Below are positions 17,259 through 56,545 of a stretch of DNA of 64,000 nt, in pieces. The stretch spans positions 79,481-143,480 of the forward strand of contig JAGYKP010000083.1 in NCBI GenBank assembly GCA_018401555.1, written 5' to 3'. Source of the DNA: Halomonas sp. GTDB lineage: Bacteria; Pseudomonadota; Gammaproteobacteria; Pseudomonadales; Halomonadaceae. Every line of letters begins with the position of its first letter. Position 1 is the stretch's first letter. The notes under the pieces are model-generated. The model worked only from the letters and a program-made list of their open reading frames with translations, ran no database searches and had not been told where the DNA came from. A program made the position numbers and the translations under genes.

Positions 17259-17332
17259 AGCCTGGGTGCCATCGCCGGGACGCCTGCGGCGCCAGTCGCG
17301 AGGCGAAGCCTCCCTCCTACCTCGATAAGCGA
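17259..17332. repeat. Degenerate copy of the REP-like unit found at 17841-18067
   Basis: agcctgggtgccatcgccgggacgcctgcggcgccagtcgcgaggcgaagcctccctcctac aligns with the 76 bp unit. Confidence 0.6.
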
Positions 17333-17840: not shown

Positions 17841-18067
17841 TTGGGCAACTCTGCCGGGCGCCTTCGGCGCCAATCGCGCAGCGGAGCTGCCCTCCTACAA
17901 AAACTCGTCGTTGCCTTGGGTGCCTCGCCGGGGCGCCTCACGGCGCCATTCGAGCAGCGGAGCTGCCCTCCTACAGAAACTCGTCGTTGCTTTGGGTACC
18001 TCGCTGGGGCGCCTGACGGCGCCAGTCGCGCAGCGGAGCCGGCCTCCTACAAATTCTCGTCGTTGTC
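17841..18067. repeat. Tandem REP-like array, three units of 75-76 bp
   Basis: Units start at 17841, 17916 and 17992 (TTGGG...); each contains GGGCGCC...GGCGCC and GCAGCggaGC(T/C)G(C/G) then CCTCCTACA and CTCGTCGTTG. Confidence 0.85.
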
Positions 18068-18076
18068 TTGGGTGGC

Positions 18077-18646
18077 CTAGCCCCGGCGGCGGGCGCGGCG
18101 CTTCTCGCCGAACAGCGACTCCCAGATCAGCCCGATGGCGCCCAGGGTGATGCCGATGTCCGCTACGTTGAAGGCCGGGTAGTACCAGCCGGCCGCGTGG
18201 AAGGAGAGGAAGTCCACCACGTAGCCGTGTACCAGGCGGTCGTAGAGGTTGCCCAGCGCGCCGCCGATGATCATGGCGAGCGATGCCGCCAGCAGCGTCT
18301 CGTCGCGCTTGAGGCGGCGCATCCAGAGCGTCAGGCCGATGCTCGCGCCCACCGCGATGGTGGCGAAGAACCAGCGCTGCCAGCCGGGGTGTTCGGCCAG
18401 AAAGCTAAACGCCGCGCCGGTGTTGTGCAGCAGCGTGAGGTTGAAAAACGGCAGCACCTCCACCGGCCGGGCATATGCGAGCCAGGCGCTGGCGGCGTAC
18501 TTGGTGGCGAGATCCAGCACGATCACCGCCAGCGACAGCCACAGCCAGCGCAGCGGCTGCTGCATGGGCGCCACCTCGGCGCCCCTTGCAGCGCCCTGCC
18601 CTGCGCGCTCTTGGGTCTCCTCGCTTTTATCTTCACTGCTGGCCAT
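18077..18646 (-). CDS. lspA: Lipoprotein signal peptidase II
   Basis: VIVLDLATKY, FFNLTLLHNTGAAFSFL, GGALGNLYDRLVHGYVVDFLSF, PAFNVADIGITLG. Confidence 0.93.
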   Translation of the reverse strand: MASSEDKSEETQERAGQGAARGAEVAPMQQPLRWLWLSLAVIVLDLATKYAASAWLAYARPVEVLPFFNLTLLHNTGAAFSFLAEHPGWQRWFFATIAVGASIGLTLWMRRLKRDETLLAASLAMIIGGALGNLYDRLVHGYVVDFLSFHAAGWYYPAFNVADIGITLGAIGLIWESLFGEKRRARRRG

Positions 18647-33208: not shown

Positions 33209-33427
33209 TCAGAGTCGGCGCGCCATCGCCTTGCGCGCCCGATTACGCCGGTAGAGTCGCACCAGGGCGATCCACAGCGCCGCCACCACCATGGCCGCCA
33301 GGGTCCAGCCCTGCCAGGGACGGGCGGCCTCTCCCATCACCGTCTCCAGGGTGATGATCAGGATGAAGCCCAGCGCCTGGCTGGCGATGGCCAGGGCGCG
33401 CAGGGTGTCGAAGGCGGAGTTGGCCAT
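33209..33427 (-). CDS. Small hypothetical membrane protein
   Basis: ORF of 72 aa with two hydrophobic segments, MANSAFDTLRALAIASQALGFILIITLETVMGEAARPWQGWTLAAMVVAALW. Confidence 0.5.
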   Translation of the reverse strand: MANSAFDTLRALAIASQALGFILIITLETVMGEAARPWQGWTLAAMVVAALWIALVRLYRRNRARKAMARRL

Positions 33428-33560
33428 GGCGGCTCCCGGCGGATGCTTGATGACAGTCCCGTCCGCCGGCAGTAGGCTTGGCGGGGTCCGGGATCGGCTG
33501 CGCCACAGTGTAACCGCTCGTCACTCGCTCGCCGACCCTGCCCTCAAGGAGTCACGCCCC

Positions 33561-34364
33561 ATGGATGCCATCGCCCTCGGCCCCGTCCTGCTCTCGCTGC
33601 CGCGCCTCTATGCCTTCGTCGCCGCCCTGCTGCTGCTGGGTGCCAGCGCCTGGCTGCGCTGGGCCTGCCGGGCCATCCACGCCCGCTGGTTCAATGGCCT
33701 GCTGCTGGCCTGGCTGATCGGCGCCAGGGTCGGCCATGTGGCCCTGCATCTGGACGCCTACGCCGCCGCCCCGCTGGACGTCCTCAAGCTGTGGCAGCCG
33801 GGCTATCATGGGCTATGGGGGCTGATGGCCGGGCTGATCTGGACCGGCTGGGCGCTGCGCGAGCACCTCGGCCGGCTGGTCGGTGCCATGGCCATGCTGG
33901 TGGTGGTCTCGGCACTGTGGCTGGCCACCGTCACCCTGGCGCCCTTCGGCGGCGGCATGGCGCTCAAGCAACTGCCCGACATCGCCCTGGAGGACCTCGA
34001 CGGCAACACGGTCAACCTGCGCGAGCTCGAGGGCGAGCGGGTGGTGCTCAACCTGTGGGCCACCTGGTGTCCGCCCTGCCTGCGCGAGATGCCGCTGCTG
34101 GCCGAGGCCGATGCCCGGGACGACGTCACCGTGGTGGTGGCCAACCAGGGCGAGTCGCTGCTGCAGGTGGTGCGCTACCTGGACGACCAGGAACTCGACT
34201 TCCGCTATGCGCTGCTCGACCCGCACCAGGAGCTGATGGTGCTCAGCGAGTCACCGGGGCTGCCCACCACGGTGCTGTTCGACGCCGAGGGTCGCGCCGT
34301 GGAGCGCCATGTCGGCGAGCTCACCCGCGCCCAGTTGGATGGCTGGCTGGGCCGGGAGAAGTAG
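33561..34364 (+). CDS. TlpA-type thiol:disulfide reductase with Lgt-like N-terminal membrane domain
   Basis: Multi-TM N-terminus with ARVGHVALHLDAYAAAPLDVLKLWQPGYHGLWGL; C-terminal thioredoxin fold NLWATWCPPCLREMP. Confidence 0.82.
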   Translation: MDAIALGPVLLSLPRLYAFVAALLLLGASAWLRWACRAIHARWFNGLLLAWLIGARVGHVALHLDAYAAAPLDVLKLWQPGYHGLWGLMAGLIWTGWALREHLGRLVGAMAMLVVVSALWLATVTLAPFGGGMALKQLPDIALEDLDGNTVNLRELEGERVVLNLWATWCPPCLREMPLLAEADARDDVTVVVANQGESLLQVVRYLDDQELDFRYALLDPHQELMVLSESPGLPTTVLFDAEGRAVERHVGELTRAQLDGWLGREK

Positions 34365-34401
34365 CAGGGCTATCACGGCTAATCATCCGGCAATAGCGAA
34401 A

Positions 34402-34498
34402 GGCGCCGGGGACAGGTCGAAGGGGGTCCTATGCCAGGATGGCATCGGTGGCGCCAGGGGTTCACAGCGCCCCTCGCAGACCTGTCGCCGGGAAAGCC
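34402..34498 (+). repeat. Dispersed intergenic repeat, copy A
   Basis: GGCGCCGGGGACAGGTC...GGGGTTCACAGCGCCCCTCGCAGACCTGTCGCCGGGAAAGCC; aligns with copies B and C. Confidence 0.85.
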
Positions 34499-34636
34499 TT
34501 GAGCTGCGGATAGCCCTGCGAGGTAGCCCCACGCTTAAGCCGCGCCGGGCTTTGCTGTAAGATACCGCGCCCTGTCCCCGAGCCGCCCCTTTCCAGCGGC
34601 CGTGAGCGCACCCTGTTACAGCATCCTCGAGGCATC

Positions 34637-37586
34637 ATGAGCGACTTCTCCCCCGGCCAGCGCTGGATCAGCGACGGCGAGGCCGAACTGGGCCTTGGCA
34701 CCATCCTCAGCTGCGACGCCCGCAGCGTCACCGTGCTGTTTGGCGCCAGCCAGGAAACCCGCACCTACAGCAGCCGCCAGGCACCGCTGACCCGCGTGGC
34801 CTTCGGCAGCGGCGACCGCATCCGCGCCGCCGAGGGCTGGACGCTGACCGTCGATGACACCAAGGAGGTCGGCGGCCTGATCGTCTACATCGGCGAGGAC
34901 GACCAGGGCGAGCTGCGTGAACTGCCCGAGGCACGCCTGGCCGACAGCATGCAGTTCGACCAGGCCCGCGACCGCCTGCTCACCGGCCAGGTCAACCGCA
35001 ACGACTGGTTCGACCTGCGCTTCCGCACCCTGCACCACTACCACCGCGTGGAGCAGAACCCGGCGCTGGGCCTGGCCGGCCCGCGCATCGACCTGATCCC
35101 CCACCAGCTGTATATCGCCGACGAGGTCGCCCGGCGCCATGCGCCCCGCGGGTGCTGCTGGCCGACGAGGTGGGGCTGGGCAAGACCATCGAGGCGGGGC
35201 TGATCCTGCACCGCCTGCTGCTCACCGGCCGCGCCGAGCGCGCGCTGATCCTGGTGCCGGCGAGCCTGACCCACCAGTGGCTGGTCGAGCTGCTGCGCCG
35301 CTTCGCCCTTGAGGTGACCCTGCTCGACGAGCAGCAGAGCCAGGCCCACGGCGACGCCAACCCCTTCGAAGCTGGCCAGCTGGTGCTGGCCAGCCAGGAC
35401 TGGCTGTTCGCCAACCCTCATCGCCAGGCCCAGGCAGAGGCCTGCGCCTGGGACCTGCTGATCGTCGACGAGGCCCACCACCTGGACTGGAGCGAGGAGC
35501 AGGTCGGCCCCGGCTACGCCTGCGTGGAGCGCCTGGCCGCCGAGAGCGAGGGCCTGCTGCTGCTCACCGCCACCCCGGAACAGATGGGCATGGAGAGCCA
35601 CTTCGCCCGCCTGCGCCTGCTCGACCCCGACCGCTATCACAGCCTGGCTGCCTTCCGCGAGGAGGAGTCCCACTATGTGGAGGTGGCCGAGGCGATCGAC
35701 GCCCTGGAGCGCCTGCCCGGTGCCGGATGCCGACCGCGAGCGCGTCGCCGCGGTGATCGACGAGCCCGACAGCCTGGCGCTGCTCGCCACCCTGGCCAAC
35801 CCCGAGGCCGACGCGGCCCAGCGCGATGCCGCCCGCCACCAGCTGCGCGACCAGCTGCTCGACCGCCACGGCACCGGCCGGGTGATGTTCCGCAACAGTC
35901 GGCGCCACGTGGGCGGCTTCCCCGAGCGGCGCCTGCACGTCACCGAGCTGGCGCCCCCCGCCGCCTATCGCCGGGTACTGCGCAAGCTGGGCCACGACGA
36001 GGAGTACCTCGACGACCTGCTGATCGAGACCGGCCTCGACCACCCCGAGGTGCTGATCTACCTGGACGCCATGTACCGCGCCCTGGCCGATGATCCCTTG
36101 AACGGGGAGCCCTGGTGGCAGATCGACCCGCGGGTCAGCTGGCTGCTGGAGCAGCCTGGCCGATGACGCCGAAGGCGGCCTGGCCGGCGACAAGGTGCTG
36201 GTGATCGCCCATAACCGCGAGACCGCCGAGGGACTGGCCGAGGCGCTGCGCGTGCTGGGCGGCTACCACGCTCCGGTGTTCCACGAGGGGCTCGCTGGTG
36301 GAGCGCGACCGCGCCGCCGCCGCCTTCGCCGACGAGGAGGAGGGCTGCCAGGTGCTGGTGTGCTCGGAGATCGGCTCCGAGGGGCGCAACTTCCAGTTCT
36401 GCCGCCACCTGGTGATGTTCGACCTGCCGCTGCATCCCGACCAGCTGGAGCAGCGCATCGGTCGCCTGGACCGCATCGGCCAGCGCCACGCCATCGAGAT
36501 CCACGTCCCGGTATTCGCGGCCAGCCCCGGCGCGAAGCTGCTGCGCTGGTTCCGCGACGGCATGGACGCATTCAGCGCGCCCCACGGCATCGGCAACGAG
36601 ATCTTCGATGCCTTCGGCGATGCCCTGGCCGACGCCCTGCTCGACGATGAGGCCCTCGAGGAGGTGATCACGGAGACCCGGGCGCTGTTCGAGAGCCGCT
36701 TGGCCGAGCGCGAGGCCGGCCGCAACCGCCTGCTGGAGCTCAACGCCTGCCGGCACGAGCGCGCCGAGGCGGTGGCCGCGGCGATCGGCGAACTGGACGA
36801 GGACCGCGCCCTGCCCCGCTACCTGGACCTGGCGCTGGATATCTTCGGCGTCGACAGCCAGGAGCTCGGCGGCGGCATCCAGCACCTGGTGGCCGGGCCG
36901 CAGATGCTCGACGGCCTGCCGGGCCTGGCCAAGGGCGAGGAGGGCTTCTCGGCCACCTTCTCGCGCTCCGGGCGCTGGCCCGGGACGACGTCCAGCGGCT
37001 CTCCTGGGAGCATCCGATGGTGCGCGAGATAATGGGTCGCATCCTCGACGGCAGCATGGGCAACACCGCCCTGGCGCTGCTCCGGCATCCATCGCTGCCA
37101 CCCGGGCGGGTCATGGTGGAGCTGATCTACCGCACCCACTGCCCGGCGCCCAGGAAGCTGCACCTCAACCGCTTCCTGCCGCCCACCGCGGTGCGCGTGC
37201 TGCTCGACGAGTCCGGCGCCAACCTGACCGACAAGATCTCCTTCACCGGGCTTTCGAAGAACCTGCAGAAGGTCAAGAAGGCGATGGCCCGGGACCTGAT
37301 CCGCAGCCGCCTGGAGATGCTGCGCGAGCTGCTCGACCGCGGCGAGGGCGAGGCGGAACGCGAGCTGCCCTCCATCGTCGAGGCTGCCCAGGGGCGCATG
37401 CGCGAGGAGCTCGACGGCGAGCTGGCGCGCCTCACCGCCCTGGCGCGGCGCAACCCGGCGGTGCGCGACGACGAGCTCGAGGCGCTGCGCGCCGAGCGCG
37501 CCGCCCTGGACGAGGCCATCGAGGGCACCCGCCTGCGCCTGGACGCCGTGCGGGTGATCGTGACTGTAGGGGAAGAAACAAGGTAG
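34637..37586 (+). CDS. rapA: RNA polymerase-associated protein RapA (SNF2 helicase); about five frameshifts
   Basis: [98 protein letters not shown]; frames switch near 35148, 35720, 36160, 36292 and 36978. Confidence 0.92.
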
Positions 37587-37590
37587 ACGG

Positions 37591-37776
37591 GGCTTTTCCG
37601 GCGACAGGCTTGCAAGGAGGCGCTGTGAACCCCTCCCTGGGCGCTACCGATGCCCTGCGGCGCTCTCGCATCCTGCTCCGCTTGCAGGGCCGGTGCTGGC
37701 CATCCATGGCCAGCCCGTTCGGAGGAATCCTCCTCACCCCTGGCATAGGACCTCCTCTTCAGCCTGTCCCCGGCGC
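37591..37776 (-). repeat. Dispersed intergenic repeat, copy B (inverted, with about 90 bp extra internal sequence)
   Basis: ggcttttccggcgacaggcttgcaaggaggcgctgtgaacccctcc...ctggcataggacctcctcttcagcctgtccccggcgc equals reverse complement of copy A with an insert. Confidence 0.85.
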
Positions 37777-56320: not shown

Positions 56321-56337
56321 CTGCCTCGAGGGTGAGC

Positions 56338-56442
56338 GGCGCCGGGGGCAGGTCTGGAGGGGGTCCGAGGACCAGGGATGGCCGAGGTAGCGCCCAGGAG
56401 GGGTTCACAGCGCCCCCGAACGGGCCTGTCACCGGGCAAGCC
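56338..56442 (+). repeat. Dispersed intergenic repeat, copy C
   Basis: GGCGCCGGGGGCAGGTCTGGAGGGGGTCC...GGGGTTCACAGCGCCCCCGAACGGGCCTGTCACCGGGCAAGCC; aligns with copy A at 34402-34498. Confidence 0.85.
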
Positions 56443-56478
56443 GCGGAGCAAGGCCACAACTCAGCGGCCAGAGATGAA

Positions 56479-56509
56479 AAAAACCGGCCCCTTGCGGGAG
56501 CCGGTTTTT
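56479..56509. terminator. Bidirectional terminator between uvrA and rplQ
   Basis: AAAAACCGGC...GCCGGTTTTT with flanking A and T tracts. Confidence 0.85.
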
Positions 56510-56545
56510 CTTTCAGCGCTTGCCTGAGCCGGGGAACGGCGAGGA

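Follow-up and report, generated by a model that had tools for sequence, protein, structure and literature searches.

The TwoAYGGAY RNA motif was described by Weinberg et al. (2010, PMC2864571). Gardner and Eldai (PMC4333381) proposed that it is a CsrA-binding RNA and noted a tandem G.A in a stem of it, and Rfam groups TwoAYGGAY (RF01731) with E. coli CsrB in clan CL00106. The RNA features that CsrA-type proteins recognize have been reviewed (PMC7652899): in RsmE complexes an ANGGAN hexaloop is contacted through its A and its GGA while N is variable, and SELEX with CsrA gave the consensus RUACARGGAUGU, the ligands having mostly short stems.

The locus considered here lies in a 64,000-nucleotide stretch of Halomonas sp. 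DNA (the window), in which the original prediction placed three copies of a new-looking dispersed intergenic element. All three are present: copy A at 34402-34498 (+), copy B at 37591-37776 (inverted) and copy C at 56338-56442 (+). The inner core GGGGTTCACAGCGCC occurs exactly at three sites of the window only, which are copies A, B and C, and the same three are the only matches in the window to R1, a covariance model built from the source genome alone. The elements and their parts are as follows.

33291-34364: tlpA-like gene preceding copy A, thioredoxin fold (Redoxin/AhpC-TSA domain match); copy A lies on its 3′ UTR side
34364..34379, + strand: copy A, 5′ arm of the optional outer stem P0, pairing with 34504-34519 (seen in the sequence)
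34393..34510, + strand: copy A, R1-matched element (core 34402-34498; 101.7 bits, E 4e-20)
34428..34448, + strand: copy A, hairpin 1, loop shortened to AGGAT (consensus AGGGAT; alignment A1)
34449..34471, + strand: copy A, degenerate hairpin 2, with the loop and part of the stem deleted and the GGA site lost (alignment A1)
34504..34519, + strand: copy A, 3′ arm of the optional outer stem P0 (seen in the sequence)
37591..37776, − strand: copy B, a long form lying between rapA (+) and an epimerase gene (−)
37633..37638, − strand: copy B, loop of hairpin 2, AGGGAG
37655..37734, − strand: copy B, hairpin 1 expansion of ~80 nt (BLAST split at consensus position 43; eight long forms aligned)
37696..37713, − strand: copy B, hairpin at the tip of the expanded arm, CTGGCC-ATGGAT-GGCCAG, with the ANGGAN loop retained
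56329..56454, + strand: copy C, R1-matched element (core 56338-56442; 86.2 bits)
56365..56387, + strand: copy C, hairpin 1, loop AGGGAT at 56374-56379 (alignment A1)
56390..56414, + strand: copy C, hairpin 2, loop shortened to AGGAG by a 1-nt deletion (alignment A1)

The usual form of the element is ~106 bp long, and all three window copies are atypical of it. Copy A lacks 9 nt, among them those of the apical loop in hairpin 2; together with copy C, whose second loop is shortened, it may be decayed. Copy C begins 17 nt past the stop codon of uvrA (a gene recognized by its UvrA domains) and lies upstream of a terminator-like hairpin with a T tract, seen by eye at ~56484-56515 and absent from the list of the terminator consensus scan. 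No intrinsic terminators were called in the three window regions, the basal stem of the element is not followed by a T tract, and no promoter of its own was seen in the window. The copies are intergenic and 3′ of the tlpA-like gene, rapA and uvrA, as originally described. Each also follows a gene in the sense direction, which for copy B is the epimerase gene; copy B is antisense to rapA. The rapA gene itself (34637-37586) is broken into three or more reading frames, with five short indels relative to H. alimentaria, and the epimerase open reading frame near copy B extends beyond its expected end; these frame breaks are assembly errors or mark a pseudogene.

The source assembly (3.25 Mb in 106 contigs, 77% complete) carries many further copies. 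A BLAST search with copy A returned 41 matches, or ~40 copies since copy B splits in two, while R1 retrieved ~58 copies in the source genome and ~67 in Halomonas alimentaria. With the consensus as query, BLAST found matches in 58 of the 61 genus genomes, and some of these copies are 97% identical to the query. A named scan covered 84,980 species, and the matches listed were all in Halomonas, Billgrantia, Salinicola, Litchfieldella, Onishia, Franzmannia and strain MFB021, all of which we take to be Halomonadaceae. At the level of the order, R1 matched 84 of the 295 genomes, representing 41 of 118 genera, and a sample of the class gave matches in 42 of 369 genomes; the highest number in one genome of the order, 141, was found in a relative designated G354.

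The fold was derived from 40 oriented copies of the source genome and alignment A1. The RNA, ~120 nt long, is a three-way junction formed by a long basal stem and two hairpins. The basal stem has three segments, interrupted by an internal loop and by a mismatch, and leads into a second stem, GAGGRGG/CCYCCTC, and the junction. Beneath the basal stem come two base pairs that covary and then, in many copies, a tandem G.A (G.A/A.G); this mismatch also occurs within hairpin 1 of copy C and of one further copy (L065), and in copy C it takes the place of the usual mismatch and A-U pair (alignment A1). The consensus is CCUAYGCC-AGGGAU-GGCRUCGG for hairpin 1 and GCGCCC-ANGGAN-GGGU, with a UCACA bulge preceding GC, for hairpin 2, the two GGA sites being ~22-24 nt apart. 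Around hairpin 2, GUAG/UUCACAGCG is highly conserved in the family. About one quarter of the source-genome copies have in addition the outer stem P0 (GGCTATCGCAG/CTGCGATAGCC), 15-35 nt outside the element, and the GGCTATCGCAG motif occurs mainly beside the element. The folds are very stable, with GC-rich stems.

The original prediction had called for a covariation test. In alignment A1, double changes were found at 18 of 40 pairs, in 106 cells compared with 29.6 in shuffled alignments (0/500), and shifting the partner by one base lowered pairing from 96% to 44%. Among members outside Halomonadaceae, 33 of 38 pairs covary, with 409 double-change cells versus 113 after shuffling (0/500), and eight copies orthologous with those of H. 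alimentaria contain 17 compensatory double changes. At variable positions, G.U exceeded A.C by about 3:1 over three sets (22:7, 28:11 and 75:21), and therefore it is the strand reading GGCGCC...ANGGAN...GUAGCG...ANGGAN that folds, in the form of RNA or, conceivably, of single-stranded DNA. The "TIR-like ends" of the original prediction are conserved boundaries formed by both arms of a single covarying basal stem, and their reading as terminal inverted repeats is not supported.

The loops of the two hairpins follow a strict rule. Every six-nucleotide loop in alignments A1, A2 and A5 (246 of 246) is ANGGAN, with positions 1, 3, 4 and 5 fixed and positions 2 and 6 variable, and loop 1 is ANGGAN in 66 of 70 members of alignment A3, the search pattern of which leaves hairpin 1 free. 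Nearly all copies have two ANGGAN loops, closed as C-ANGGAN-G and commonly AGGGAU or AUGGAU. Two such loops are present in 31 of 31 aligned members outside Halomonadaceae, as opposed to 8 of 6200 shuffles, a count to be read with the fact that R1 was trained with ANGGAN loops and so favours loop-bearing matches outside the genus. The element thus displays the loop of a CsrA/RsmA-binding RNA, that is, a hairpin with an ANGGAN hexaloop in which the A and the GGA are invariant and N varies. A variant of hairpin 2 present in several hairpins, UACAGGGAUGUA, is nearly the SELEX consensus. The source genome has one CsrA gene, and CsrA was found in 50 of 50 near-complete relatives, although its presence is a weak test since CsrA is near-universal in these genomes.

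At the gathering threshold, no Rfam family matched in the window. A CRISPR-DR match (E 2.4) is attributable to chance, and miRNA and Ysr224 look-alikes that came up in laxer Rfam scans of relatives were all sub-threshold. RF01731, the gathering threshold of which is 43 bits, had no match in the source genome at E 10 and none in the source genome or H. alimentaria at E 0.1. In the genus, its matches are weak (18-23 bits only) and fall on R1 matches of 107-109 bits. In related families, nine of ten above-threshold RF01731 loci are also R1 matches, with E values of 1e-7 to 1e-11; one locus (L330) is above threshold and has no R1 match. G354 contains 42 RF01731 and 141 R1 matches, several of them at the same places, with weaker RF01731 hits coinciding with R1 matches to within a few bases, and in this genome TwoAYGGAY itself behaves as a dispersed repeat. 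In another relative (L336, 1435-1481), a guanidine-II riboswitch adjoins a TwoAYGGAY-type element. We therefore file the element as a divergent, amplified relative of TwoAYGGAY that scores below the level at which Rfam itself admits members. Its description as new-looking thus holds as far as Rfam detection in the source genome is concerned, and no account of such a Halomonas repeat was found in the open-licence literature, but the element is not without kin.

Copy B was said to be ~90 bp longer than the others and to hold further hairpins. The extra segment, ~80 nt with an apical hairpin, is there, and it is an expanded hairpin 1. It is almost identical in seven other copies, at other sites and in other species. 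All eight long forms retain exactly two ANGGAN loops, hairpin 1 being replaced by a larger, near-identical arm with a C-ANGGAN-G tip; the tip loop is AUGGAU in copy B and AGGGAU in another copy (L030). The proposal that B is the complete element and that A and C are internally deleted forms of it has to be abandoned: the short form is the norm, the long segment of B is a recurrent expansion, and the variation between short and long forms at shared loci, together with the eight long forms, rules out B as an ancestral full-length element. Two loci are short in the source genome and long in H. alimentaria, so that the length of the arm changes, by expansion or contraction, at a fixed site. A second arm variant is a recurrent insertion of ~15 nt resembling CGGTCCGGCGCYCCGGGG, just 5′ of the 3′ arm of the basal stem, seen in five source-genome copies (L025, L026, L029, L067 and L068) and in several copies of other genomes.

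Occupied and empty sites were compared between genomes. In H. alimentaria, the site of copy A and that of a further copy (L019) have lost the core and retain arm remnants, the deletion at site A having its break between the CGCCGGG repeats of both arms; at site B, only GGCGCCGGGGACAG remains of the 5′ arm. The arm remnants at these near-clean empty sites indicate loss by internal deletion, and the existence of dozens of non-orthologous copies means that gain must have occurred as well. The uvrA-rplQ site of copy C is occupied in 3 of 30 genomes of one sample and in all six closer relatives, five by R1 matches (L104-L108) and H. alimentaria by adjacent coordinates. In relatives lacking the element, this gap often has tandem repeats of ~7-8 bp directly past the uvrA stop codon (L074, L076, L078, L080, L082, L095, L099 and L102). 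The repeated unit differs per species (GAGCAAG, TGCGAGG, GGCGTGA, CGGCCAAG) and is followed in some by an inverted echo; it is another type of dispersed repeat.

For 172 copies, approximate positions relative to genes were obtained from ORF calls, the caller having been trained on H. alimentaria. In codirectional gaps, the element lies a median of 25 nt past the stop codon and 66 nt before the start codon, and divergent gaps are depleted (17 of 172 copies versus 111 of 451). Codirectional gaps hold 76 sense and 43 antisense copies, a mild bias that comes mostly from one of three samples; a strong preference for the sense strand across all copies is not supported. A cruder gene caller used earlier gave 9 sense and 11 antisense in such gaps.

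Taken together, the observation behind the original prediction is confirmed: the element is dispersed, intergenic and conserved at its boundaries. The interpretation is supported in part: of the three options offered (MITE-like, REP-derived or structured 3′-end RNA), the last fits best. We think it likely that each copy encodes a ~120-nt RNA module carrying two predicted CsrA/RsmA-binding loops, and that the copies would provide distributed CsrA sites near gene 3′ ends. Against this reading, the stems are very stable and GC-rich, whereas SELEX ligands have mostly short stems; the orientation bias is mild, and antisense copies would not be displayed in the neighbouring mRNA; and some copies look decayed, one GGA loop being lost in copy A and one loop shortened in copy C. 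The same RNA might instead act at 3′ ends independently of CsrA, as an mRNA stabilizer, RNase barrier or terminator helper. The proximity to stop codons, the depletion of divergent gaps and the stability of the folds would all suit such a function, which we nevertheless regard as improbable, given that it leaves unexplained both the fixed A and GGA with a free N in both loops across many families and the upkeep of ANGGAN loops in the long form. Still further down the scale is the idea that the loops serve another protein, or dock into a receptor such as the conserved UUCACAGCG strand. In its favour is the GUAG/UUCACAGCG conservation around hairpin 2, which CsrA alone does not explain, but the loops follow the pattern known from RsmA/CsrA (PMC7652899), and we give this idea very little credence.

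A selfish DNA element of the MITE or REP/BIME kind, the fold of which would serve a transposase as single-stranded DNA, with gene ends as tolerated insertion sites, is the alternative we take most seriously among these, though we consider it unlikely. It would be in keeping with the many copies, the patchy uvrA-rplQ occupancy in the 30-genome sample, the small orientation bias in two of the three samples and a REP-like GTAG motif at the 5′ foot of hairpin 2; a single-stranded DNA hairpin would likewise favour G.T over A.C. Against it, a survey of 32 Y1_Tnp loci found no transposase sharing the ends, none of these loci being near an element, which speaks against a RAYT/IS200-type transposase as the mobilizer. 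No target-site duplication is visible either, the near-clean empty sites in H. alimentaria (at A, L019 and B) being internal deletions, and with the ends being stem arms a MITE is not supported. Nor is a REP derivation, since the source genome's own RAYT genes are flanked by a different repeat. One RAYT-like gene (L071) lies between inverted GGGGTCTGACCCC repeats (1196-1218 and 1935-1957), which are probably its own REP family. A REP-like palindrome, CAGCGGAGCTGCCCTCCTAC, is also found in the window, in a 76-bp unit present in three tandem copies at 17865-18092, with a partial fourth at 17287. Finally, the selfish-element explanation leaves the ANGGAN loop rule and the kinship with the CsrB clan unaccounted for.

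With a CsrA-binding module, the following course of events can be envisaged. The module would be transcribed mostly within 3′ UTRs or intercistronic RNA, and both of its loops would be clamped by a single CsrA/RsmA dimer. Bound copies could then protect or mark their host mRNA locally, and all copies jointly could titrate CsrA as distributed binding sites. Copying would spread the module, and deletions, arising where its arms hold short direct repeats or microhomologies, would remove it. More tentatively, and with the balance of our judgement against it, a CsrA-binding module may have turned into a self-spreading repeat, present in dozens to more than 100 copies per genome, whose twin clamps on unrelated mRNAs act as a joint sponge and recruit those mRNAs into the CsrA regulon; TwoAYGGAY would then be a gammaproteobacterial repeat family, not an ordinary small RNA. 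If the loops bind CsrA, there would be ~100 extra CsrA sites per genome beyond the classical leaders and sponge RNAs, and models of CsrA level and targets for Halomonas and relatives would change. The little-studied TwoAYGGAY family of Rfam would acquire a functional role and be recognized as dispersed in genomes, subject to gain and loss and able to expand an arm, and a large branch of it would prove to have been missed by present Rfam thresholds.

Compared with known systems, the element is most like TwoAYGGAY. Both have two junction hairpins with AYGGAY/ANGGAN loops, although the second position is often G and not Y in the element, conserved AGCG and CGGCG strands at hairpin 2, a long variable basal stem and a tandem G.A in a stem, not necessarily the same one. 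The element differs in its tens of similar copies per genome, its long form, its optional P0 and its junction sequence. With CsrB, CsrC, RsmX, RsmY and RsmZ, sponge RNAs that titrate CsrA, it shares hairpins with GGA loops, but those RNAs are single-locus with many GGA sites, whereas the element has two sites per copy and many copies dispersed beside unrelated genes. A further comparison is with Alcanivorax dieselolei, presumably of the same bacterial order as the source organism. Its CsrR1 and CsrR2 are also predicted CsrA-binding RNAs, but they are single loci (in the hfq 5′ UTR and beside fdx) with 6-9 GGA motifs and are not repeats (PMC9788540). REP/BIME sequences with RAYT and MITEs such as ERIC resemble the element in being short, palindromic, multi-copy and intergenic, near gene ends; unlike them, the element has no linked RAYT or transposase, and it is distinguished by a complex three-way junction and a fixed loop rule.
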